IMG/VR virus record: IMGVR_UViG_3300042485_000296
Location: 1-20,532 of that record
Length of the DNA: 20,532 bases
Origin: a virus
Strand: one strand, 5' to 3'
A program made the translations under genes and the position numbers. The notes under the pieces are model-generated. The model was given only the letters and a program-made list of their open reading frames with translations, searched no databases and had not been told where the DNA came from. Positions 2,930 to 20,532 of this stretch are shown in pieces; positions within the stretch are counted from its first letter, which is position 1; each line of letters begins with the position of its first letter.

Positions 2930-3517
2930 ATGCCAATTATTGCTACCCGCGCTTCTGCGGCTTATGGTGCTGGTTTTGCTGCTATCACCACACCTCCATT
3001 TCTTGGTCCATTCGGTGCGTATGAACCTATTGCTGTGACAACTGTTCCTAGCGGTGGTGTAGCCTCAGTAAGTTTTGGTTCAATTCCACAGACTTATACG
3101 CATTTACAGGTTCGTTGGTTTGCTAGAGGTTCATCTTTGACTGGGGTGGTTTGGAAATTTAACAATGACAGCGCTGCGAACTATGCTCGACATAGATTAA
3201 CCGCCGATGGTGCGACTGATGCTGCGAGTGAAATAACATCTGCGAGCAACATTTACGCAGTTGCTTCATGGGGCATTCCAAACGGGGCTAGCAAATTTGG
3301 TAGCGGTGTTTATGACATTCTTGATTACAGTAATACAAATAAATATAAAACTTTGCGCGGTTTAGCAGGTCAAGATTCAGATGGTTCAGGTGGTGTAGAA
3401 TTTCTTTCAGGATTATGGATGAATGCTGCCGCAATCACTTCAATTTTTATCGAGCCTAATACTGGAACAATCGCAGAATATAGCAGTTTTGCTCTTTACG
3501 GCATTAAGGGGAATTAA
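2930..3517 (+). CDS. Jelly-roll-like fibre/adhesin domain protein
   Basis: The product has 195 residues, with AAAGGAG seven bases before the ATG. The body (about 30-195) is a single beta-sandwich domain marked by VSFGSIPQTYTHLQVRWFAR, FNNDSAANYARHRL, DILDYSNTNKYKTLRG and a closing FALYGIKGN. The same signature (SIPxTYTxL, FNxDxxxNY, DxxxYSNxxxxKT, hxxYGI) occurs at the N-terminus of the next two genes, so the three form a paralogous set. Here the domain stands alone without a glycine-rich extension. Such domains are common in phage receptor-binding or surface proteins and may bind carbohydrate, but no binding residues can be assigned from sequence alone. Confidence 0.75.
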   Translation: MPIIATRASAAYGAGFAAITTPPFLGPFGAYEPIAVTTVPSGGVASVSFGSIPQTYTHLQVRWFARGSSLTGVVWKFNNDSAANYARHRLTADGATDAASEITSASNIYAVASWGIPNGASKFGSGVYDILDYSNTNKYKTLRGLAGQDSDGSGGVEFLSGLWMNAAAITSIFIEPNTGTIAEYSSFALYGIKGN

Positions 3518-3518
3518 A

Positions 3519-4865
3519 ATGGCTACTACTTATGTTCCTATCGCAACACAGGACTTGAATGGTTTATCAGAAATTACTTTCTCCTCCATTCCTGCGACTT
3601 ATACCGATTTGAGAGTCGTAACATCAGGCGCAGTCGCAACAGGTTTGTCCAACTGGTCACTTCAATTTAATGGCGATACATCAACAAATTACAGCACTTC
3701 ATTTACTGCTACAACTGGTGGCTCTGGAAGGTCAACAGGTCAGACATATCTCACTCTTGACAGATACGGCTACTTTTCAACCAGTCAAACTAACATCTTG
3801 TTTGATGTAATGAATTACTCTAACGCAACAACATTTAAGACTGTGTTGAGCAGGTCAAATAACGCAGCCGAAGGCGTGGGACTTTTGACGGGTTTATGGA
3901 AAGCAACACCAGCAGCAATCAATTCTATTCGTTTATTTTTATCTGGAAGCACCTTCGCCGCAGGTTCGCGCGTAACCATTTATGGAATTGGTTCTGTTGT
4001 AGCCGCTAGTGCTGCTAAAGCAACAGGTGGCGATACGATCGCAACAGATGGAACTTATTGGTATCACGCATTTAGAGCGTCAGGTACTTTCACTCCAAGC
4101 GTTGCTTTGACTTGTGATTATTTAGTAATAGCAGGTGGCGGTGCTGGTGGAAATGGTAAGTCTGGTGGTGGTGGTGCTGGAGGTTTGCGTTCGACTGTCG
4201 GCGCAACTGGCGGTGGAGGTTCATTAGAGTCACCCCTATCATTGACCGCTCAGGCTTACACAGTAACTATTGGTGCTGGTGGTGCTGGTTCAACTAATCA
4301 AACTTCAGGTCTTGCTACAACACGCAACGGCAATAATTCCGTATTCGCAACAATAACTGCTACTGCTGGTGGTGGTGGCGGTCAAGACGCAGACAACGCT
4401 GGACAGGCTGGTGGTAATGGTGGTTCAGGAGGCGGTGCGGCTCGTAACGCCACAGTTGGTACTGGAACAGCAAATCAAGGTTTCAATGGTGGAACTGGAT
4501 TTACTGGTGGTGGCGCGTATGGTGGCGGCGGCGGTGGCGGTGCTGGCGCAGTTGGTGCTAATGGTGGAGTAACTATTGGTGGTAACGGTGGTGCTGGTGT
4601 AGCAATTTCAGCATTTGCGACTCCGACTGGAACTGGTGTTTCAAATTATTACGCGGGCGGTGGTGGCGCTTGCGCTTATTTACCAGCATCAGGCGTTCCT
4701 GGAACAGGCGGTGCTGGTGGCGGTGGAAATGGTGCTAGCACAACCACTTCTGTCGGCGTTGCTGGAACTGCTAACACAGGTAGTGGCGGTGGCGGTAATG
4801 ATGGAAATGGTTATACAAGTGGCGCGGGTGGTAGCGGTTTAGTGATAGTGAGGTACGCGGTCTAA
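3519..4865 (+). CDS. Glycine-rich adhesin with jelly-roll-like N-terminal domain
   Basis: This encodes 448 residues from ATG 3519, chosen because AAGGGG at 3506-3511 lies seven bases before it; a longer frame back to 3423 overlaps the previous gene. Residues 1-160 are the domain shared with the preceding protein (ITFSSIPATYTDLRVV, FNGDTSTNYS, DVMNYSNATTFKT, VTIYGIG). Then GGDTIATDGTYWYHAFRASG begins a long Gly-rich region (about 200-445) of GGG, GAGG and GGNGG repeats ending GSGLVIVRYAV. This architecture matches phage glycine-rich adhesins. The closest described structural precedent is the polyglycine-II sandwich of the S16 gp38 adhesin. The likely role is host-surface binding. The stop overlaps the next start (TAATG). 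Confidence 0.8.
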   Translation: MATTYVPIATQDLNGLSEITFSSIPATYTDLRVVTSGAVATGLSNWSLQFNGDTSTNYSTSFTATTGGSGRSTGQTYLTLDRYGYFSTSQTNILFDVMNYSNATTFKTVLSRSNNAAEGVGLLTGLWKATPAAINSIRLFLSGSTFAAGSRVTIYGIGSVVAASAAKATGGDTIATDGTYWYHAFRASGTFTPSVALTCDYLVIAGGGAGGNGKSGGGGAGGLRSTVGATGGGGSLESPLSLTAQAYTVTIGAGGAGSTNQTSGLATTRNGNNSVFATITATAGGGGGQDADNAGQAGGNGGSGGGAARNATVGTGTANQGFNGGTGFTGGGAYGGGGGGGAGAVGANGGVTIGGNGGAGVAISAFATPTGTGVSNYYAGGGGACAYLPASGVPGTGGAGGGGNGASTTTSVGVAGTANTGSGGGGNDGNGYTSGAGGSGLVIVRYAV

Positions 4866-6199
4866 TGCCAGCAAATCATGTTTTATTAGAAAAGGTAGTT
4901 GTAGGGGCGGCGGGTGCTAACTCTGTAACTTTTAACTCAATCCCTCAAACTGGTTATACCGATTTGAAAATTGTTATGTCGGCAAGAGGTACAGGAAATG
5001 CCAGCGCTCGAATTAACTTGAAGATAAGTTTTAATGGAAGCACTACTACCTTTTCGAGTAAATTAAAATACGCTGAATCAAATGCTGTTGGTTCACAAAC
5101 AGGAACAGATAACATTGTTGGAGTTTTTTCTGGCGGAGGTGCTACAGCCAGTTCTTTTGGTTCGGCAGAAATATACATTCCAAACTACACTTCAAGCGCT
5201 TACAAATCATTTAGTGTTGATTCAGTATCAGAAATCAATACATTAGTAAATGGAATGTGGCTTCTTGCTGGATTGTGGAGTACGGGAACAGCAATATCTA
5301 GTGTTAGTCTAATAGCAAACTCAGGAGACTTTGCCCAACACTCAACCTTCTCACTTTATGGCATAGCCACTTACGCGGTAACTCCAGTTATTGCGCCTTT
5401 CGCAACTGGCGGAGATGTTATTCAAAGCGACGGTACTTATTGGTATCATGCTTTCTTGGCTTCAGGAACATTTACTCCACTAAAGGCTTTAAGTTGTGAT
5501 GTTCTAGTAGTCGCAGGTGGTGGCTCAGGTGGCGGCTCTAACAATGGCGGCGGTGGTGGAGCGGGTGGGTATGTTTATTCAACTTCACAATCAGTTGCGA
5601 TTTCTGCTCAAACTGTAACAGTTGGTGCTGGTGGCTCTGCGGCAACTCAACTAGCGCAAGGAAATAGCGGTTCTAACTCACAGTTTGCTTCATTAACCGC
5701 AGCAGTAGGTGGCGGTGGTGGTGGTTCTCAATCAGGCGGTAATGCTAGAAATGGCGGCTCAGGTGGCGGTGCTGGTAATACAACAACCGCAGGAACAGCA
5801 ACCGCAGGTCAAGGTTTTGCTGGCGGTAGTAGCGGTAATAGCGGTGGCGGTGGCGCGGGTGCTATTGGTGGTAATGGTTCAGGAACAACTACTGGCGGAA
5901 CTGGCGGTGTTGGGTTAAACACTTGGTCAACTTGGTTATCACCTACTGGTCTCGGTGTAAGCGGGTATGTTGCTGGAGGCGGCGGCGCTGGTGCTAGTAC
6001 GACAGCAGGTGTTGGTGGTACTGGAGGCGGTGGCACAGGTTCGCTAGGAAACAGCAATACAGGCGGAACTGCTGGAACAATGAATACTGGTGGCGGCGGC
6101 GGTGGCGGTTATTTAGCAACTGTTAGCGGTGGTTCAGGAACTACTGGTGGGCTTGCTGGTGGTTCAGGACTTGTTATTATTAGATACCCAATGGTGTAA
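4865..6199 (+). CDS. Second glycine-rich adhesin, paralogue of the preceding gene
   Basis: The product has 444 residues and is translationally coupled through TAATG. It has the same layout as its neighbour: an N-terminal jelly-roll-like domain (VTFNSIPQTGYTDLKIVM, ISFNGSTTTFSS, YTSSAYKSFSVDSVSE, FSLYGIA). The linker motif GGDVIQSDGTYWYHAFLASG and a Gly-rich region (about 215-435) follow, ending GSGLVIIRYPMV. The pair is diverged in both codons and residues, so the duplication is not recent. The conserved core 'DGTYWYHAF.ASGTFTP' and the closing 'GSGLVI.RY' suggest two related receptor-binding specificities carried side by side. Binding targets cannot be read from sequence. Confidence 0.8.
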   Translation: MPANHVLLEKVVVGAAGANSVTFNSIPQTGYTDLKIVMSARGTGNASARINLKISFNGSTTTFSSKLKYAESNAVGSQTGTDNIVGVFSGGGATASSFGSAEIYIPNYTSSAYKSFSVDSVSEINTLVNGMWLLAGLWSTGTAISSVSLIANSGDFAQHSTFSLYGIATYAVTPVIAPFATGGDVIQSDGTYWYHAFLASGTFTPLKALSCDVLVVAGGGSGGGSNNGGGGGAGGYVYSTSQSVAISAQTVTVGAGGSAATQLAQGNSGSNSQFASLTAAVGGGGGGSQSGGNARNGGSGGGAGNTTTAGTATAGQGFAGGSSGNSGGGGAGAIGGNGSGTTTGGTGGVGLNTWSTWLSPTGLGVSGYVAGGGGAGASTTAGVGGTGGGGTGSLGNSNTGGTAGTMNTGGGGGGGYLATVSGGSGTTGGLAGGSGLVIIRYPMV

Positions 6200-8925: not shown

Positions 8926-9172
8926 TTTTGAAGAAGCGTTAGATAATTTTGTGCCACAGAAGAAATCCAATGGGATGACTTGCTCTGTAAAGAAAGTACT
9001 TGACCAACTGGGCGAGTCAGCAAAAGAAAAATTACTCAGGTTAATGGATAACCCAGAAGCCCTGTCTTTAGATATTACCTTGCTTTTGAAAAACCACGGC
9101 TATCAAATAAGTGCTGAGGTAATGCGCAGACATAGGCGGCGAGCGAACGGCGGGGGCTGTTCTTGTCCATAA
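8813..9172 (+). CDS. Small basic protein with RHRRR...GCSCP tail, function unknown
   Basis: From GTG 8813 (AAGGGA seven bases upstream) this encodes 119 residues; in-frame GTG 8951 and ATG 8975 are alternatives giving 73 or 65 residues. The part from 8975 (MTCSVKKVLDQL, ALSLDITLLLKNHGYQISAEVMRRHRRR, GGGCSCP) resembles small helix-turn-helix-like proteins of actinophages in which a helical domain ends in an 'IS...RRHRR' helix and a Cys pair. DNA binding is therefore plausible. The upstream start would overlap the zinc-ribbon ORF by 113 bases in another frame. No catalytic residues are seen. Its neighbours (Com-like protein and a metallophosphoesterase) form a small non-structural island. Confidence 0.6.
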   Translation: MTKFQDAGDVTESLRNILPAHGNSTAEDVKPPINKPLNFEEALDNFVPQKKSNGMTCSVKKVLDQLGESAKEKLLRLMDNPEALSLDITLLLKNHGYQISAEVMRRHRRRANGGGCSCP

Positions 9173-9186
9173 ACTTTGAGGATGAC

Positions 9187-10374
9187 ATGGAGAAACTTCT
9201 CCAAACCTCAAACAATCCCGCAGCCGAGCCCAAGTTAAAAAAAATCGGTGCGGAGTGGCAAGCAGGTGTTGTCTGGAATGGTGATGAAGGAACCATTACA
9301 ACCACGGCACTTCCATTGGAAGAAGCACCTAACTGGGATTCCATTTTACGCCTATGGGGTCTCGACCCAACTCAATTTCGTGTTGTCGAACCAGTTCTGT
9401 TTAATGTTTGGGGCAACCCAGATGCGACCCTCAATCGTCAATGGAAGGGTAAAGTCGTTCAAATCGCAGACGACACAAGAAAAGAAGATTTAAGTGAGTT
9501 AGAAAAGGAAATCAAAAAACATAAACCTAAACTTAAAACATCTTTCACGGGGCAGGGCGCGATGATTGTGGTGTTATCTGATTGGCAGATAGGCAAGGCA
9601 GATGGAGATGGGTTAAAGGGAACTATTGAGCGCATACTTAATGGGATAGATAAGGTTGAAGTTCGAATCAAAGAACTTGAGAAATTAAAAAGACCTATAG
9701 GCAAGTTGATGGTTCTTTGGACAGGCGACTCGATTGAAGGGTGCGTTGGTCATTATGCGCAACAAACCTTCTCAGTTGAACTTGATAGACGCGACCAAGT
9801 CAAAGTCGCCCGAAGGTTGCTTCGAGATGCGCTTATGCGCTGGAGTAAGTATTTTACTGAGGTTCAAGTTCTCGCAGTTGGCGGAAATCATGGTGAAAAT
9901 AGAAATGGCGCGGGCAAGTCTTATACCTCATTAAACGATAACGATGATGTTGCGATAGTTGAGCAGGTTGCTGAAATCCTTGAAACCAACCCAGAAGCCT
10001 ATGGACACATTCAGTTTGCGATACCGAAAGATAGATTAAGCATTACAGCAGAAGCCGCTGGTTGGGTTCTAGGTATTACACACGGACACACCGCCCGAAG
10101 GGGTGGAACGGGAACTGAACAAAAACTTCGCAGATGGCTAGAAGGACAGTCACTCGGTCGCAGAAGTGTAGGCGGCGCAGATGTTTTAGTTTCTGGTCAT
10201 TATCACCATTTTCGAGTTGCTGACTGGGGTGGCTGTGTTTGGTTACAAGCACCTGCGATGGATGGCGGAAGCGATTGGTGGCAAGAAATGTCTGGTGAAA
10301 AATCCGAGTCAGGCATTTTGACATTCTGTATGTATCCAGAAATCCGCGTTACCGACATCGCTATCTTAAAGTGA
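9187..10374 (+). CDS. Calcineurin-like metallophosphoesterase
   Basis: This encodes 395 residues from ATG 9187, which has GAGG five bases upstream; TTG 9163 would add eight residues and overlap the previous gene. All expected metal-site motifs are present in order. They are VVLSDWQIG (D132; the usual D-x-H has Gln in place of His), WTGDSIEG (D181), GGNHGEN (N234, H235), THGHT (H299, H301) and SGHYHHF (H338, H340, H341). An N-terminal domain of about 120 residues (GVVWNGDEGTITTTALP, DSILRLWGLDPTQFRVVEP) is typical of the actinophage version. The substrate is unknown: nucleotide, nucleic acid or phosphoprotein are possible. Its presence between neck and tail genes is unusual for an enzyme. It is expressed in line with structural genes. 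Confidence 0.85.
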   Translation: MEKLLQTSNNPAAEPKLKKIGAEWQAGVVWNGDEGTITTTALPLEEAPNWDSILRLWGLDPTQFRVVEPVLFNVWGNPDATLNRQWKGKVVQIADDTRKEDLSELEKEIKKHKPKLKTSFTGQGAMIVVLSDWQIGKADGDGLKGTIERILNGIDKVEVRIKELEKLKRPIGKLMVLWTGDSIEGCVGHYAQQTFSVELDRRDQVKVARRLLRDALMRWSKYFTEVQVLAVGGNHGENRNGAGKSYTSLNDNDDVAIVEQVAEILETNPEAYGHIQFAIPKDRLSITAEAAGWVLGITHGHTARRGGTGTEQKLRRWLEGQSLGRRSVGGADVLVSGHYHHFRVADWGGCVWLQAPAMDGGSDWWQEMSGEKSESGILTFCMYPEIRVTDIAILK

Positions 10375-12538: not shown

Positions 12539-15500
12539 ATGGCAGTTGTAGATGCGTTGGTTCGCTTAAAAGCGGATACTGCTCAATTCTCAAAGGCTAT
12601 GTCTGATGCTTCAAAGGCTACGGATAAAGTAGGTTTTTCAGCGGATAAAACTGCTTCCCTTCTCAAAGGTAAGTTAAAATTAGGTTTGCTCGGAGCAGCA
12701 ACTGCTGCCGCAGCACTATCAGTAAAACTAGGGCGCGACTCAGTTCAGGCAGCACAAACAGCGGGCGCGGCACAAAATAGACTTCGCAAACTTCTGTTAA
12801 ATACAAATGGTGCGACTGAGGCACAGATACAAACACTTTTTGCGCAGGGCAAGGCACTTGAAGACCTTACTGGTATTTCCAAAGAGAATGTAACAGTTGT
12901 TCAGTCTCAGTTAGCAACCTTCGATTTACATGGCAGCACAATCGGCGCATTAACCCCAGCAATTCTGGATTATGTTGTTGCTGAAAAAGGTGCTACTGCG
13001 GGAGCAGATGAGTTCCGTTCAATGACTAACGGACTTGCTCAGGCATTAAATGGTCAGTTCGGAGCATTAACAAAACAGGGCTTTGTGCTTGATGCTGACA
13101 CAAAGAAAATGATTAAGTCAGGTACGGAAAGCGAACGAGCAGCAGCGATTGTTAAAGTATTAGGAACAACTTATAGAGACTTTGCTGCTACTGCTGGTGG
13201 ACCCGCTGCTATCGCTCAAAGAAAGTTTACGAACTCGATTAATGATACAAAAGAAGCACTTGGTAACGCGCTATTACCGATAATCACGGAAACAACTGGC
13301 GGATTAAGTACGGCTCTATTGCCAGCATTAACAGCATTACAAGAAAAGTTTGCGGATGGAACATCTGTAGCGAACTTTGTTGGTTTTGTAAAAGACTTGG
13401 TAAAGAATCTTTTTGATTTTGCTAAAGCAGTTGTCACGGTATTTGAACCCATATTTACAGGGCTGATAGTTCCTGCCATAAAAATAGCCATAGGCGCAGT
13501 TATCGGGTTCATTAAGATTCTTGGTGCGGTTGGAAGATTTATTCAAAAGAACGCCGCTGTTTTCCAAGTGCTAGTTGGCGCAGTAGTCGCGGTTGCGGCA
13601 GCCATGGCTGCGTACATTATTCAAGTTAAAGTAGTCAACGCAGTTCATAAAGCATTTATATTTATCGCAGGGGCAAAAGGTAAGGCAATAAAAATGCTTA
13701 CCAAAGGCTTCAAGACGCTTAACCTCGTGATGAGACTAAATCCAATTGGTTTAATTATTTCAGCAGCGACCTTGCTTATAGTTGGCTTTGCTTTGTTGTG
13801 GAAAAAATCTGATACTTTCAGAAAGATGATGATTCAAGTTGGCAAGGCTGGCGTTATGGGTATCGGTTACATCATCAAAATTGTAGGGGTTTTGCTTCAA
13901 GGATTGTTTAATGTTGTGACTGGACCTTTACAATTACTTCTCAAAGGACTTGATTTACTTGGGGTAGATGCGGCTGGAGCCGCATTAAAAGGTATCAAAG
14001 GAATGTCCAAAGGTATTGGCAACTTCTTTGATAAGGCTGGCAATCAGGTTCAAGACTATGCTGATAAATTAGATGGCTTAAATAAACAAAAAGTAGCACC
14101 AAAGGTAAAGGGTGCTGCGAAACCAGTTCTGGATTTAGCATCACTTGGAACATCAAATAAACAAAGTGCGGTTGACCTTAAGGCTCAAAAAGCAGCAGAA
14201 AATGCGGCAAAGAAACTCGCAGAAATGAAGCGAACCTTACAGGAAGCAGTCAGTAGTTACAACGATTATCTGAAGTTTGATTTTGCTAATTCATTTAATA
14301 ACGGCGCAGAGGCAGCCCGTGATGCGGTAATAGGCGCACTTGATAAATTAAATGCGGTATTTGAAGCGAAAGGTAAAATGCTGAGTGGTGCTGCCCTCGC
14401 GAGTTTACGAAAAGGTTTTGACAAAATAAACCAAGAAGTCCGAGCCATGATGGAAACATATGCGGACTATGCTAAACAAATAGAAGATATTTCCGCTCAA
14501 TTAAAGGATGCTGAAAACGCACTAGCAGACGCAATTAAAGAACGCTCTGCTGCTATGTCTAAATTTGGTGATTTACTTGCTACGCCTTTTGGACAAGAAA
14601 GCGATATTAGAAAAGCGATGAGTAGCGCGGATGCTACTGTTGAGTCAATTATTGGAATGTATGACCAACTGGTTGATTTAGTCAACCAAAGATTTACAGA
14701 GTTAGCCCCCGGTGCGCGTGATGCGGTTAAGGCTTACTTGTATGCGCAAACAAATGGTTTAATTGACGCGGCTCGTCAAAGAGTTAAAGCAATAAAAGTT
14801 CTTGAAGCAGCACAGGACAGACTCGATGATTTGATTGGCGAACAAAAACAATTTAGCAGCAGCCTCACCAGTTCACTTAAATCTTTTGCTACTGCTATTG
14901 CCGACCTATCTAAAACAGATGCTAAGGCGACATACACTGTTGTTAAGACTGCTACTGGTCTAGTCATATCACAACTAAAGAAATCATCAAGCGGCGTAGA
15001 TACAATTACAGAACAACTCAAGCAACGACTAAAAACCATTTCTGACTTTGCTACTAATGCTAATAAATTGTTAGCGTCAGGATTAAACAGAGAGTATGTT
15101 CGACAATTACTAGAAGCGGGTCCAGAGGCAGCGGGTCAAGCAGTAACCGCACTAGCCACCGCAAACGCAGGGCAGATTGCGGAAATCAATTCGCTGTATA
15201 GTCAAATAGGTACTGTGTCAGACCAGTTTGGCGTAGAGGCTTCAGACAAAATGTTCGCACAAGCCGTAGCAATGACTACTGCTTTCCGTGATGGCGCTGC
15301 GCTAGGTGTTGAACTGATTGACGCAGTTATGACTGACATCGTTTCTAACATAAGCGCAATCATGGGTATTCTTGGAAATACAGGATTAACTAATGCTGAG
15401 GCTTTAATTAACGCCCTTGTAGGAGAGTTTGACCGCCAATCAAAGGAAACTGTTGGACCCGCAACTCAAAAGGTTGTAGATAAAATTAAAGAAACAATAG

Positions 15501-16459
15501 GCGTTCTTTCAGCGGTTGGTACAACTAACGCTCAAGCATTTATCAACGGCTTAATTGGTGCTTTAACTGGTAAAGATAATCTAAACAATGTCAATCTTTC
15601 TGCGACTACTATAAAAACAAACATTGATACTATTATGAAGTTGCTTGCTCCTGAAGCACTTACAAGTGGTCTTGGTTTAATTAACTCACTGGTTACCGCC
15701 TTTGGTGGCGCAAACCTTACGCTTGTAACTACATCCGCAACTACTGTTAAAGACAGCATTACTACCGCTTTGTCCTCGCTTAAAACTCTCGGAACCGACC
15801 TTGCTACCGACCTTGCTCAAGGATTATTTGATAAATTAACGGCAGAAAAGGCTCGTCTAGTTGCTCTTGCTACAAGTATTGCTGCTGCGATTGCTACTGC
15901 GATGAAGGCTGCTGCCGCTGCTATTGATGTTCAAGTTGAAGACCTCGGTGGGGGAGGGGGTGGTGGCGATAGCGGTAATCCTTATCAAAACGCAGACCGC
16001 AACTATGACGAAAAATATGGTACTGGCGGTGCTGGTGCTACTGGTACTGGCGGTGGTGTTACTGGTGCGCCACCAAAAGTTGTCACGCCTACAAAACCTC
16101 CAGTAAAGCCTCCAGTAAAGCCGCCAGTTGTTACAAAACCAAAACAGTATGGCGGTATCTATGCTGATATGTACAAGGCTGGTGTTAATCCAAATCTAAA
16201 AATACCTACTTCGCTTATTCAACCCGTTGCTAGTTCTACGGCGACTGTCAAAATGCCTCCCGTAGTTGTAAAGCCACCCGCTGCTAAGCCAGTTGTTAAA
16301 CCTCTTGGTAATTACGCTATGTCAACTTCAGGCAGTGGAAATCAGGGAGTCAAACCACCTGTAGTGGTAAACATCTCAACAAATAAAGTTGTACCTACTG
16401 TGACCGCGGCAACCATTGCTCAACAACTAGCAAAAGCAACGAATGTTAGGAATCGCTAA
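12539..16459 (+). CDS. Tape measure protein
   Basis: At 1306 residues this is the largest gene, right behind the chaperone pair. The N-terminal part (TAQFSKAMSDASKATDKVG, then a long helical region with GLAQALNGQFGALTKQGF and KFTNSINDTKEALGNALLP) is typical of tape measure proteins. Hydrophobic segments occur at about 294-365, 400-421 and 435-460. Residues 530-1130 are largely helical/coiled coil. The C-terminus has a Gly run near 1137 and Pro-Val-Lys repeats near 1185-1200 (KPPVKPPVKPPVV). Using the usual ~0.15 nm per residue, the tail would be roughly 195 nm. No lytic enzyme domain is evident. The stop overlaps the next start (TAATG). Confidence 0.9.
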   Translation: MAVVDALVRLKADTAQFSKAMSDASKATDKVGFSADKTASLLKGKLKLGLLGAATAAAALSVKLGRDSVQAAQTAGAAQNRLRKLLLNTNGATEAQIQTLFAQGKALEDLTGISKENVTVVQSQLATFDLHGSTIGALTPAILDYVVAEKGATAGADEFRSMTNGLAQALNGQFGALTKQGFVLDADTKKMIKSGTESERAAAIVKVLGTTYRDFAATAGGPAAIAQRKFTNSINDTKEALGNALLPIITETTGGLSTALLPALTALQEKFADGTSVANFVGFVKDLVKNLFDFAKAVVTVFEPIFTGLIVPAIKIAIGAVIGFIKILGAVGRFIQKNAAVFQVLVGAVVAVAAAMAAYIIQVKVVNAVHKAFIFIAGAKGKAIKMLTKGFKTLNLVMRLNPIGLIISAATLLIVGFALLWKKSDTFRKMMIQVGKAGVMGIGYIIKIVGVLLQGLFNVVTGPLQLLLKGLDLLGVDAAGAALKGIKGMSKGIGNFFDKAGNQVQDYADKLDGLNKQKVAPKVKGAAKPVLDLASLGTSNKQSAVDLKAQKAAENAAKKLAEMKRTLQEAVSSYNDYLKFDFANSFNNGAEAARDAVIGALDKLNAVFEAKGKMLSGAALASLRKGFDKINQEVRAMMETYADYAKQIEDISAQLKDAENALADAIKERSAAMSKFGDLLATPFGQESDIRKAMSSADATVESIIGMYDQLVDLVNQRFTELAPGARDAVKAYLYAQTNGLIDAARQRVKAIKVLEAAQDRLDDLIGEQKQFSSSLTSSLKSFATAIADLSKTDAKATYTVVKTATGLVISQLKKSSSGVDTITEQLKQRLKTISDFATNANKLLASGLNREYVRQLLEAGPEAAGQAVTALATANAGQIAEINSLYSQIGTVSDQFGVEASDKMFAQAVAMTTAFRDGAALGVELIDAVMTDIVSNISAIMGILGNTGLTNAEALINALVGEFDRQSKETVGPATQKVVDKIKETIGVLSAVGTTNAQAFINGLIGALTGKDNLNNVNLSATTIKTNIDTIMKLLAPEALTSGLGLINSLVTAFGGANLTLVTTSATTVKDSITTALSSLKTLGTDLATDLAQGLFDKLTAEKARLVALATSIAAAIATAMKAAAAAIDVQVEDLGGGGGGGDSGNPYQNADRNYDEKYGTGGAGATGTGGGVTGAPPKVVTPTKPPVKPPVKPPVVTKPKQYGGIYADMYKAGVNPNLKIPTSLIQPVASSTATVKMPPVVVKPPAAKPVVKPLGNYAMSTSGSGNQGVKPPVVVNISTNKVVPTVTAATIAQQLAKATNVRNR

Positions 16460-17976
16460 TGGCAGTTACAACAGTTCGCCCTAACGCTACTGCCTCTGGT
16501 GCTTCATCATTTACTATTTCTGGCGGTTCTGCTTCGCTTAACGCCGCGACAAGCGACAACAGTGACTCTACTTTCTTTTCCAAATCCACATCTATTGTTG
16601 GTCAAGCCAGCGCATTACTTGATTTTGGAACTACAACTATTACATCATCTCAGCGTGTAAAAAGATGTCGAATCCGCGCTAGAGCAACAACCCCGACTGC
16701 TGATGGTCGCATCAATGTTTATCTTGGAACACGAGCAGATAACCAAAACTATTTTCACTCCGCGCTCGCAATTCGAGGGTTGAACTCAATAACAACATTT
16801 GTTGGGCCATATCAGACCTCAGCACCAAATGGAGAAGACTGGTCACAAACCACGATTAATGGCTTGCGAGCAAAAGTAACAGAATACAACGACACTGGTG
16901 TTCTTGGAAGTATTTATGAATTGTATGTGGACATAGACATTTCAACACAGCCTACTGTAACTGTCTCAGCACCAACTGGAAGTATTACAACCACAACTGC
17001 GCCCGATGTGACTTGGGCTTACGCAGACACAGATAATGAAACACAAGCATTTTACGAACTGAAAATCTTTTCAGCAGCACAATATGGAGCAGGAGGATTT
17101 GATGCGCTTACTTCTACGGCTACTTACGAATCAGGAGAAATTGCGTCGTCAGATAATACGGCAGTGGTTGGTGATTTACTTCTTAGTGGTACTTATCGTG
17201 CTTATGTTCGTGTGGCGAAGTCTGTAAATGGTTCACCTTTTTACTCAGATTTTGCTTTTAGTCAATTCACTATAACTGTCACACCTCCGTCTGTTCCGAC
17301 TTTATCTGCTTCTTGGAATAGTTCACTAGGTAAAGCAACACTCACTGTCACAGGCACATCACCAACTGGGTATGTAAGTCAATACTTTGATGTTCACCGC
17401 TCAGATGATAGTGGAACTATTTATGATGGGGTTCGCTATGGAGAAAACATTACTCCAAACGCAAGCCATGTCGGAACAGCGGTTGATTACGAAGCGCCGC
17501 GCGGGATTGTTGCGTATTACCGCGCTCGCGCAGTCGGAGTAGATAGCAGTTCAAATGAATTTCCATCTGCTTGGTCAACTGTTCAACAGGTTTTGATTAC
17601 AAATGATGAGACATGGTGGTTTAAAGTAATTGACAACCCTTCAATAAACATCGGTGATGTTCGAGTTCTTGCTCAGTTAGACACAAATATTGAAGAACCT
17701 AACACTGTTTTTCGACCACTCGGTTCAACTCGACCTATTGTTGTCGCAGGACCACTTCAAGGTGAAGATGGAATCTATAGTATTAAAACTCTCACCGAAG
17801 CAGAGTATGACGCGTTCTATCCAGTTATGGTTTATCAAGGAACAATCCTTGTTCAAGACCCTGCTGGAAATCAAAAATACATTCGCATTACATCAAGAAC
17901 CTTTGCGGCAGAAAGTAAGCAAGGTGGAGTCATTTATCGTGACATTGACTTGGCATATGTCGAGGTTGATGAATAA
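16459..17976 (+). CDS. Distal tail / minor tail protein with fibronectin III-like domains
   Basis: The product has 505 residues. Residues 1-155 form a beta domain (TSQRVKRCRIRARATTPTAD, INGLRAKVTEYNDTG). Two fibronectin III-like modules follow at about 165-275 (PTVTVSAPTGSITTTTAPDVTW, TYRAYVRVAKSVNGSPFYSD) and 277-375 (PPSVPTLSASWNSSLGKATL, YYRARAVGVDSSSNEF). A C-terminal domain starts at WWFKVIDNPSINIGDVRVL and contains FRPLGSTRPIVVAGP. The last segment is typical of minor tail proteins directly downstream of the tape measure in actinophages. A role in the tail tip is likely. It is coupled to both neighbours by TAATG. Confidence 0.78.
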   Translation: MAVTTVRPNATASGASSFTISGGSASLNAATSDNSDSTFFSKSTSIVGQASALLDFGTTTITSSQRVKRCRIRARATTPTADGRINVYLGTRADNQNYFHSALAIRGLNSITTFVGPYQTSAPNGEDWSQTTINGLRAKVTEYNDTGVLGSIYELYVDIDISTQPTVTVSAPTGSITTTTAPDVTWAYADTDNETQAFYELKIFSAAQYGAGGFDALTSTATYESGEIASSDNTAVVGDLLLSGTYRAYVRVAKSVNGSPFYSDFAFSQFTITVTPPSVPTLSASWNSSLGKATLTVTGTSPTGYVSQYFDVHRSDDSGTIYDGVRYGENITPNASHVGTAVDYEAPRGIVAYYRARAVGVDSSSNEFPSAWSTVQQVLITNDETWWFKVIDNPSINIGDVRVLAQLDTNIEEPNTVFRPLGSTRPIVVAGPLQGEDGIYSIKTLTEAEYDAFYPVMVYQGTILVQDPAGNQKYIRITSRTFAAESKQGGVIYRDIDLAYVEVDE

Positions 17977-19121
17977 TGTATCCATCTAGTGCTGCTTTCA
18001 AGACAGCAGTTCGAACCGACCACATTGTTATTGCTAAAGCAGAGGTTTGGGCAAGCGACCAAAAATTACAAGAGATAAACATTTCGGAAGGGTCGGTCTC
18101 AGTAAACTCAAGTTCGGCGGTTCGAAGAACTTGTGAAGTCAGTCTTGTAACAGGTCGTGAACTTGCGAATCTAGTTCCAGATAATGATTTCGACTTGCTG
18201 ACTCCTTTTGGAAATGAACTGCGCTTATATCGTGGAGTTCAATACGCAGACGGAACAGAAGAATATGTACCGCTAGGGGTTTTTGTTATTACAGAGGTCG
18301 CTATTCAGGATACAAATGAAGGCGTTTCAATTAAACTGGCAGGGGAAGACAGGTCAATCCGTATTTCGCGAGCCAAATGGACTGAGCCTTATCAACTACC
18401 TAATGGAAGTCTTGAAAGTGCTTTAACCGACTTATTAAAAGATAGATACCCAGACGCAGAGTTAGCCTTTCCTACAACAAATGTCAGCGTCAATCAAGTT
18501 GTATTGGGTTCAGAAAACAGTAATGACCCATGGAAAGATGCGGTTGAAATTGCGGAATTGGTTGGCTTCGACCTATTTTTTGACCAAAATGGTGTTGTTC
18601 AAATGAAGCAATTTCCAACCCTTGATGGCTCGGTTGTTGTATCGCTATTTATTGAAGGCAGCGGAACAACAATCACAAGTTTGGATAGAACCATCTCAAC
18701 AAAAGAAACTTTCAATGGAGTCATTTACACTATTGAAGGTTCAGATGTAAGTCTTCCGATTAGAGTAGAAGCGTGGGATGAAGATACATCCAGCCCGACA
18801 TATCGTTTTGGCGTCTTTGGTGAAGTGCCTACATTTGTTGAAACAAATCTATTATCAACAGAGGCAGAAGCACTCAGGGCTGCTTATAGTTTGTTAAATA
18901 TCTATGTAGGTAAGCAGGAACAAATCACCTTCAACTCTTTGGTTGACCCAACTTTAGATGTTCAAGATGTAATTTATGTAAAGTCAGATGGAGCAAAAGT
19001 AGACCGCCTTGTAATTATTGACTCGCTTGACATACCCTTGAATCCGCAAAGTGAAATGTCTGCCAATGCGCGAACAGTCCGAATAGTTGCGTCTGGCGAA
19101 CAAGTTTTGATTGGAGGATAA
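17976..19121 (+). CDS. DUF5047-like tail hub / minor tail protein
   Basis: This encodes 381 residues. The N-terminus FKTAVRTDHIVIAKAEVW, then SEGSVSVNSSSAVRRTCEVSLV, LTPFGNELRLYRGVQYADGTEEYVPLGVFVI and EGVSIKLAGEDRSIRISRAKW, is characteristic of the DUF5047-type actinophage minor tail proteins. These are thought to form the tail hub. The C-terminal part (GFDLFFDQNGVVQMKQFP, SLDRTISTKETFNGVIYTIEG) resembles hub domains of other siphophages. The ending VLIGG places GGAGG as the ribosome site of the next gene. Confidence 0.8.
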   Translation: MYPSSAAFKTAVRTDHIVIAKAEVWASDQKLQEINISEGSVSVNSSSAVRRTCEVSLVTGRELANLVPDNDFDLLTPFGNELRLYRGVQYADGTEEYVPLGVFVITEVAIQDTNEGVSIKLAGEDRSIRISRAKWTEPYQLPNGSLESALTDLLKDRYPDAELAFPTTNVSVNQVVLGSENSNDPWKDAVEIAELVGFDLFFDQNGVVQMKQFPTLDGSVVVSLFIEGSGTTITSLDRTISTKETFNGVIYTIEGSDVSLPIRVEAWDEDTSSPTYRFGVFGEVPTFVETNLLSTEAEALRAAYSLLNIYVGKQEQITFNSLVDPTLDVQDVIYVKSDGAKVDRLVIIDSLDIPLNPQSEMSANARTVRIVASGEQVLIGG

Positions 19122-19123
19122 TT

Positions 19124-19360
19124 ATGGATTTCGCAGATATTGTTAGGTCAATCGCTGACCAAAGTAATCGCATGTCGGTTCATTATGGAAAAGTCACGGC
19201 GAAAACTAACGGCAATACAAGAATTAGTGTTTTAATATCTGGCAGTTCAACCGCTGTTACTGGTGTTCGATACCTACATAGTTATGCGCCTCAAGTGGAT
19301 GATATTGTGGTTTTGTTAGCAAATAAGGGTGACATTATTGCTCTCGGCGACCTCGCTTGA
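19124..19360 (+). CDS. Small OB-fold-like tail tip protein
   Basis: The product has 78 residues, starting two bases after the hub gene with GGAGG just before. The pattern HYGKVTAKTNGNTRISVLISG, GVRYLHSYAPQVDDIVVLLANKGDIIALGDLA is that of an N-terminal OB-fold of the type found in phage spike and hub proteins (gpV/gp45-like), here without a spike domain. It is probably a tail tip component working with the hub. It is the last recognisable tail gene in the window. Confidence 0.65.
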   Translation: MDFADIVRSIADQSNRMSVHYGKVTAKTNGNTRISVLISGSSTAVTGVRYLHSYAPQVDDIVVLLANKGDIIALGDLA

Positions 19361-19398: not shown

Positions 19399-19683
19399 AT
19401 GTCGTTACAAGAATATGCCCAGTTAGTCGCAGCCGTATCTGGCGCAATACTTGGGGTTCTAGCCCTTGGAGGAACATTGGTCTATAAACCGATAAGGAAA
19501 AGTCTTGAAGTATTTATTGACGCTCGATTACGCCCAATAGAAGACACGCTGCTGGAACTCAAGCCCAACGGCGGCTCATCAGTAGCAGACCGCATTGTAA
19601 GATTAGAAGAACGGCAGTCAGGCATTGGGCAAAGGCTCGATGATGTTTATGACATAGTCAAAGCGATTGCCACAAAGGAGTAA
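19399..19683 (+). CDS. Membrane-anchored coiled-coil protein, holin-module candidate
   Basis: This encodes 94 residues. One hydrophobic segment lies near the N-terminus (about residues 8-27, LVAAVSGAILGVLALGGTLV). A charged helical region follows, likely a coiled coil (about 33-92, with EDTLLELK, VRLEERQSGIGQRLDDVYDIV). This layout resembles small membrane proteins of the actinophage lysis cassette (DUF2746-like). It sits directly behind the tail tip genes and before a second membrane protein, the usual lysis position. No endolysin is present in the window. A role as holin or holin partner is inferred. Confidence 0.6.
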   Translation: MSLQEYAQLVAAVSGAILGVLALGGTLVYKPIRKSLEVFIDARLRPIEDTLLELKPNGGSSVADRIVRLEERQSGIGQRLDDVYDIVKAIATKE

Positions 19684-19685
19684 GT

Positions 19686-19958
19686 ATGACAATAAATAAG
19701 CAGGTTTTAGAAAGTTATATCCGCCATCTTGCTGGAGCATTATTTTCAGCAGTAGCAACAATCGCAACAATCACTGGAAAGTCGCCTATCGGCTTTGAGT
19801 CCACGGATTGGTTCGCTGTGGCAAACTCACTATGGGTCGCAACACTGCCAGTTCTGTTCCGTTACTTTAACAAGCAAGACCCAGCGTTTGGCAAGGTAGC
19901 AGAAGCCCTTGCTGGCGAGGTTACAAAGACGCTTAAATCTAAGTCCACAAAGAAGTAA
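19686..19958 (+). CDS. Putative holin
   Basis: The product has 90 residues, with AAAGGAG five bases before the ATG; this ribosome site lies in the end of the previous gene. Two hydrophobic stretches are seen at about 13-31 (HLAGALFSAVATIATITG) and 44-61 (FAVANSLWVATLPVLFRYF). A Lys-rich C-terminus follows (LKSKSTKK). Two membrane segments and a basic tail are typical of class II holins. The opening 'Y(I)RHLAGALF' resembles holins of aquatic and actinobacterial phages. It is followed by a strong terminator, so it ends the late operon. Confidence 0.65.
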   Translation: MTINKQVLESYIRHLAGALFSAVATIATITGKSPIGFESTDWFAVANSLWVATLPVLFRYFNKQDPAFGKVAEALAGEVTKTLKSKSTKK

Positions 19959-19969
19959 AACTTTCGAGG

Positions 19970-20000
19970 CTGGGTGGCTATTCACAAGTCACCCAGTTTT
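19970..20000 (+). terminator. Rho-independent terminator
   Basis: CTGGGTG (19970-19976) pairs perfectly with CACCCAG (19990-19996) and is followed by TTTT (19997-20000). One more pair can form after a single mismatch inside. It closes the transcript that carries the tail and holin genes and separates them from the protease gene. Confidence 0.75.
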
Positions 20001-20015
20001 GGACTGGGCATGAAG

Positions 20016-20021
20016 TAACCT
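20016..20021 (+). promoter_or_regulatory. Candidate -10 element TAACCT for a leaderless transcript
   Basis: TAACCT lies between the terminator and the protease gene and ends seven bases before its ATG, the same spacing as at 19386-19391. There is no ribosome site before the ATG. A TTGGAC at 19999-20004 is only 11 bases upstream of it, too close to be a normal -35. Confidence 0.4.
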
Positions 20022-20028
20022 ATGCTCC

Positions 20029-20532
20029 ATGACCACAATCATCGCAGTTCAAGGCAAGAGCAAAGTTGTCTTTGGCGCGGACTCGCAAGTAACTTCTGGT
20101 AATGGTCGAGTTCAAAGACATCGACAGATGGTTAAGATAACCCAGCGAGGTCAATACATAATTGCGGGTTCAGGGGAATGCGCTCCCTGTGATATTGCGC
20201 AACATATTTGGAAACCACCAACACCACAAAAAAATGACTGGGCTGACATCTATCATTTTATGATTGCGAAGGTTGTTCCTTCATTAAAGGTTTGTTTTAA
20301 GGAAGAAGAATATAAGTGGGATAAGGAAGATGGGGAAAGTAAGTTTAATTTTCTTATCGCATTAGGTGGTCAAGTCTTTGAAATAGCAGACGACATGAGC
20401 ATTACTCTTGACGCTACAGGATATTACGGAGTCGGTTCGGGTTCTCCTTACGCAATCGGCGCACTTGAGGCAGGGGCAACAGTTCAACAGGCTCTTGAAA
20501 TCGCAGCAAAAAATGACGCCTATACAAGTGCG
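20029..20532 (+). CDS. Proteasome/HslV-like Ntn-hydrolase protease (partial, 3' end missing)
   Basis: An open frame of 168 codons runs off the window end. It begins MTTIIAVQGKSKVVFGADSQ. After Met removal, Thr2 would be the N-terminal nucleophile, as in proteasome beta subunits and HslV (TTIV...). Asp18 in GADSQVTSGN matches the conserved Asp17. Lys36 in MVKI is the best candidate for Lys33 (two residues farther along), and IAGSGECAPCDI matches the GxxG oxyanion loop region. The length to the window end is close to a full HslV (about 175). No HslU or other ATPase partner is visible. A role in capsid maturation, host protein turnover or late regulation is possible. Assignment to the superfamily is strong; placement within it is not. 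Confidence 0.8.
   Translation, partial: MTTIIAVQGKSKVVFGADSQVTSGNGRVQRHRQMVKITQRGQYIIAGSGECAPCDIAQHIWKPPTPQKNDWADIYHFMIAKVVPSLKVCFKEEEYKWDKEDGESKFNFLIALGGQVFEIADDMSITLDATGYYGVGSGSPYAIGALEAGATVQQALEIAAKNDAYTSA

Follow-up and report, generated by a model that had tools for sequence, protein, structure and literature searches.

The window analysed here, that is, the whole stretch of 20,532 nucleotides of viral DNA, ends in a gene for a proteasome-like Ntn hydrolase. From the conserved residues and the family placement we infer that this gene encodes a catalytically competent N-terminal-threonine hydrolase from the BPH/HslV side of the family. The best explanation of its role, to which about an even chance of being correct is given, is that of an accessory peptidase that stands alone, resembles BPH, probably needs no ATPase and serves host takeover or phage proteostasis. 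This explanation is built on homology, the catalytic triad, the fold, the promoter layout, the absence of a partner encoded by the phage and the presence of a separate head protease.

The open frame occupies the last 504 bases of the window. The contig stops after residue 168 of an expected length of about 185, so the extreme C terminus is absent from the window copy. Complete relatives have 172-229 aa; the closest one, of 185 aa, is encoded by a 52-kb viral contig (L002) and shows 80% identity over the 168 residues. The preliminary description had correctly located a gene at the end of the window, but the gene begins at the ATG at 20029 and not at 20016. This ATG is the sole possible start: an in-frame TGA lies at 20011-20013 and no start codon is found between them. 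The start is therefore unambiguous, and so is the exposure of Thr2 once Met is removed, which means that the N-terminal Thr is kept after mapping of the start. The gene is present in one copy per genome.

Table 1. Coordinates of the proteasome-like gene, its catalytic codons and the features upstream of it in the window.
Feature	Position	Strand	Evidence
Tail module (tape measure, distal tail, tail protein, OB-fold-like), late neighbours	12539..19360	+	Same order in L002-L008
Small membrane protein, possible holin, of the upstream operon	19399..19683	+	phrog_9869, 5.7e-7 (unknown function); weak holin match, 0.029
Small hydrophobic protein, last before the terminator, possible second holin	19686..19958	+	No family match
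17-bp hairpin, probable intrinsic terminator of the tail/holin operon	19963..20003	+	Folding compared with shuffles; relatives
TAACCT, -10-like box (TANNNT), 7 nt before the start codon	20016..20021	+	Position-specific enrichment
Proteasome-like Ntn hydrolase gene, 5' 168 codons	20029..20532	+	Open frame reaching the contig end
Catalytic Thr1 codon (ORF residue 2, exposed on Met removal)	20032..20034	+	Invariant in 130/130 distinct phage homologs
Asp17-equivalent codon (ORF residue 18)	20080..20082	+	Invariant in 130/130 distinct phage homologs
Lys33-equivalent codon (ORF residue 36)	20134..20136	+	Invariant in 130/130 distinct phage homologs

Thr2, Asp18, Lys36 and the GSG at 136-138 (L002 numbering) align with Thr1, Asp17, Lys33 and Ser129 of the proteasome, so that the Thr-Thr N-terminus, the Asp, the candidate Lys and the GSG loop first noticed in this DNA all stand at proteasome positions. 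Besides the invariant triad (Table 1), which is common to E. coli HslV and two BPHs, the glycines of the GSG are also invariant in the 130 distinct phage homologs; Ser129 is Ser in 115 of them and Thr in 14, and Asp166 is Asp in 95. Pairs of close relatives give a dN/dS of ~0.05, and the protein is therefore under strong constraint.

The membership of the proteasome family is established by several searches. The window frame scores 28 bits with the PF00227 profile, above the curated cut-off of 22.4, and is matched over its whole length by PHROG 1040 (3.6e-30), whose name, 'peptidase HslV family', is an annotation only and whose profile also takes in phages of other hosts. An AlphaFold2 model of the monomer, built on the L002 protein (80% identical to that of the window) with 33 relatives in the alignment, reached a pLDDT of 90.3 and a pTM of 0.86 and shows the strands of the Ntn sandwich and helices H1-H4 in order. 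When this model was compared with the PDB, the top match was BPH (Z 18.8, rmsd 2.6, 164 residues), followed by HslV with Z about 18, rows within Z 1 being regarded as tied; 20S beta was also matched. The sequence profile search ranks BPH first as well (1.7e-12). Sandwich, triad and PF00227 score together place the protein in the proteasome-like family.

As to the position within this family, the original label of proteasome/HslV-like holds for the Ntn proteasome family and not for HslV, the nearest solved relative being BPH. The L002 protein scores 25.8 and 25.5 against equivalog cut-offs of 157.75 and 137 (TIGR03692/NF003964), far below what HslV would require. Fold, Thr-Thr start and triad are shared with HslV, whereas the phage family lacks HslU and carries the opposite charge in the pore loop. 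The H2-S7 pore loop is long and, in 127 of 130 phage proteins, acidic; its charge averages -3.6 and its length 14.5 residues, compared with +2 and 7 residues in E. coli HslV and with -5/-6 and 19 residues in the BPHs. BPH (PDB 5ovs, 5ovt, 5ovu) thus resembles the window protein in fold and profile, in Thr1/Asp17/Lys33 and in having a longer acidic pore loop, and no dedicated unfoldase is known for it either; it differs in that identity is about 20-24%, the window family is phage-borne and the pore loop of the latter has 14 residues instead of 19. In the tree the BPHs form a branch of their own apart from the window family, with unsupported deep joins and long branches.

Phage-borne proteasome homologs were described in 2021 by Fuchs, Alva and Lupas, with group I in phages (PMC8665760), so the earlier suspicion that such a family is perhaps not new was right: phage proteasome homologs are already known as a kind (PPH, AAH, CPH). 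These are, like the window protein, compact proteasome-like subunits of tailed phages that keep the triad and for which no AAA+ partner was found, none co-occurring with the phage group I homologs (PMC8665760). PPH as published has about 140 residues and lacks helix H2 (PMC8665760); the window family has about 185 residues and a helix at 74-92 in the model, and since H2 is present it is not PPH. Plasmid proteins from Rhizobium, Streptomyces, Paraburkholderia and Bacillus form, together with XacN1, a clade with 100/100 support apart from the window family; the identity of this clade as AAH is inferred from taxonomy. ORF203 of Xanthomonas phage XacN1 (L094:4001-4591), annotated as hypothetical, falls in it with full support. 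No Actinobacteria-specific phage carrying AAH was found in the 2021 survey (PMC8665760). In addition, a BPH-like gene has been named in one phage paper (PMC8953757), and phage HslV without HslU has been reported (PMC7823757).

Proteasome-family peptidases normally need an ATPase, and the search for one bears directly on how the protein could work. No HslU/ClpX-type AAA_2 domain occurs in 24 phage records and no ClpP in 25, which sustains the first impression of a stand-alone enzyme and discards a phage-encoded partner of the HslU/ClpX type; HslU is likewise missing from two isolate/assembled phage genomes. Another type of ATPase, AAA PF00004, is found in 11 of the 24 records, none of them the nearest kin (G001, G006, G011). 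Because phage HslU/ClpX was not found, any unfoldase partner would come from the host, and the protein could then redirect host ATP-dependent proteolysis during infection as the partner protease of ClpX, ClpC1 or Mpa. The triad kept by all family members is in agreement with such a role; however, it is of low probability, since hexameric HslV-type and heptameric alpha-type docking surfaces are known to differ, HslU is above the cut-off in only 5 of 14 control genomes and the pore loop is long and acidic, as in the ATPase-free BPH. Mpa docking needs an alpha-ring-type surface, which a beta-like ring does not have. The long acidic loop of BPH has been linked by Fuchs et al. to the absence of an unfoldase (PMC5777263; PMC8665760). 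In the phage family, too, an acidic pore loop of 14 residues, together with the lack of a phage HslU/ClpX, suggests that no dedicated AAA+ unfoldase is needed.

The upstream region indicates how the gene may be expressed. The hairpin ahead of it folds far better than shuffled sequences in the window (z -4.6 to -5.2), with only four T on its 3' side, and recurs in every one of the seven window-clade members whose upstream DNA was folded (the window, L002, L003 and L005-L008; z -2.3 to -4.6), in which the sequence has diverged and the pairing is kept. TANNNT lies 6-7 nt ahead of the start codon in eight of eight clade members (these seven and L004). The motif stands at exactly this distance in 27 of the 122 distinct upstream regions compared, whereas shuffling yields 3.9; other spacings are rare, and family members inside operons more often have a Shine-Dalgarno-like stretch instead. 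A generic sigma-70/terminator scan of the window listed neither the box nor the hairpin, which is why the comparison among relatives was needed. The recurrence of this layout makes the own transcription unit, proposed at the outset from a terminator and a -10-like element, well founded for the window clade. Leaderless transcripts with their own -10 box are common in actinobacteria, and the spacing of the box suggests, as far as the DNA can tell, a leaderless message from its own promoter in this clade.

The neighbourhood of the gene was also considered. In the window, L002, L003 and L005-L008 the gene comes after tail and holin-like genes, and the small hydrophobic protein that precedes the terminator is conserved with it in 4 of 66 representatives (10 loci). 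The late-gene neighbourhood of the window would fit the capsid maturation protease initially proposed, or one for tail maturation, and in 10 of the 66 representatives, on podovirus-like contigs, the gene stands directly behind the portal gene; besides, none of G016-G018, the podovirus-like records searched for a head protease, has one of the S78, S78_2 or ClpP type. Nevertheless, a separate XkdF-type (S78_2) head protease is present in nine of nine records of the wider clade of the window, and two complete-looking relatives show the gene order portal, MuF-like protein, XkdF-type protease and major head protein. Moreover, LeeroyJenkins has both a gp16 'protease' and a gp25 'capsid maturation protease', and elsewhere the proteasome-like gene adjoins primase, HDAC, ThyX and tRNA genes. 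Because the separate head protease is present in all nine records, a capsid role is regarded as unlikely in the window clade, and as a general reading capsid or tail maturation is very unlikely; it is possible for the podovirus-like lineage with the gene behind the portal.

Regarding this podovirus-like lineage (L055:6247-9111; L045-L059, L084, L135, L138, L139, L157 and L170), the proteasome-like gene has a fixed place: the portal gene precedes it and a small low-complexity protein comes next, with a protein of about 1850 aa after that in L055 and several others. An HDAC-family protein (PF00850, 9e-58; L022:7018-7956, + strand), which has counterparts in 20 further loci, is encoded immediately ahead of the proteasome-like gene or a short way upstream of it in 8 of 66 representatives. 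No PHROG matches it, and its relatives appear in only eight phage-collection records. A Mom-type DNA-modification protein (PF25680, 2.7e-27; L035:7321-8004, + strand) is also encoded directly upstream. In the window itself, a calcineurin-like phosphoesterase/exonuclease (PHROG 284; 9163-10374) is inserted among the head-tail connector genes, and its relatives directly flank the proteasome-like gene in eight other representatives; two consecutive long Gly-rich (GGGGAGG) tail-fibre-like proteins (4865-6199 and 3423-4865) appear to be related copies.

The neighbours vary over at least eight contexts (tail/holin, HDAC, transglycosylase, portal, primase, exonuclease, metallophosphoesterase and ThyX/tRNA), and there is no constant operon partner, the commonest neighbour adjoining the gene in 10 of 66 representatives (about 15%). 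Since the neighbours change with the lineage, the gene can be regarded as accessory, placed where modules meet. In the nearest relatives it has possible holins on one side and a CHAP endolysin on the other, and lysis neighbours (CHAP, SLT) are seen in contexts A and C. These neighbours favour a specific Ntn amidohydrolase or a transpeptidase/ligase like connectase, acting perhaps on one host or cell-wall-linked peptide, one version of which would have a timing related to lysis. Connectase, a member of the same family, is a monomeric ligase and not a protease (PMC8665760), so the fold can act in this way. We consider this activity unlikely: H1 and H2 are both present in the model and both missing from connectase, lysis neighbours occur in a minority of contexts (CHAP in 3/66, SLT in 2/66), and the protein has no signal peptide ahead of Thr1 and is cytosolic by sequence.

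Returning to the accessory peptidase, its mode of action can be outlined from the conserved residues and the fold. After removal of Met, Thr1 would form the nucleophile with Lys33 and Asp17. As fold and family suggest, the subunits would probably come together on their own as a homo-oligomeric ring like that of BPH, the active sites facing its interior. Needing no AAA+ unfoldase dedicated to it, the peptidase might then cut already-unfolded or specific host or phage polypeptides. Its expression in the window clade would start from the putative leaderless promoter behind the tail-operon terminator, a position that would make its timing separable from that of the structural genes. Purified BPH was inert on standard substrates, yet bound epoxomicin (PMC5777263); for this reason, activity of the phage protein must not be assumed.

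Relatives of the gene were found on at least 550 viral contigs in the larger scan, and 81 were confirmed in another one. Full-length homologs are carried by the isolated actinophages LeeroyJenkins, WaterT and Pumpernickel of Microbacterium and Hum25 of Arthrobacter, labelled 'protease'; with about 29-34% identity, they sit among early/tRNA genes and not behind the tail module. More distant relatives occur in isolated phages of enterobacteria, Vibrio and Xanthomonas and on bacterial plasmids, and no near-identical DNA was found in isolated phages. In two scans of bacterial and archaeal genomes, no relative was confirmed at the level of pattern matching applied, which leaves absence from host chromosomes unproven. 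The host is indicated by the relatives of the window, which include L002 and L008, both sharing its gene order: WhiB, an accepted marker for freshwater actinophages (PMC6802176, PMC10202952), is present in 19 of 25 related records and was not seen in the window, which is a fragment; in the control set only Corynebacterium has it. On this account the window virus and its relatives appear to be phages of freshwater actinobacteria, in line with the actinobacterial phage first assumed.

To our knowledge, the proteasome-like genes of phages have no known function. The present analysis adds that the family, which keeps the triad without exception, is abundant in freshwater actinophages and has an acidic pore loop; for the window clade it adds a putative leaderless promoter and evidence that speaks against a role in the capsid. 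The role is directly testable because relatives exist in culturable Microbacterium and Arthrobacter phages. If the protein assembles and cuts, it would be an ATPase-free proteolytic compartment brought in by the virus. Tentatively, the family may represent a distinct and widespread lineage of ATPase-free, self-compartmentalising viral threonine proteases with which actinophages could remodel the proteome of the infected host or disable it.
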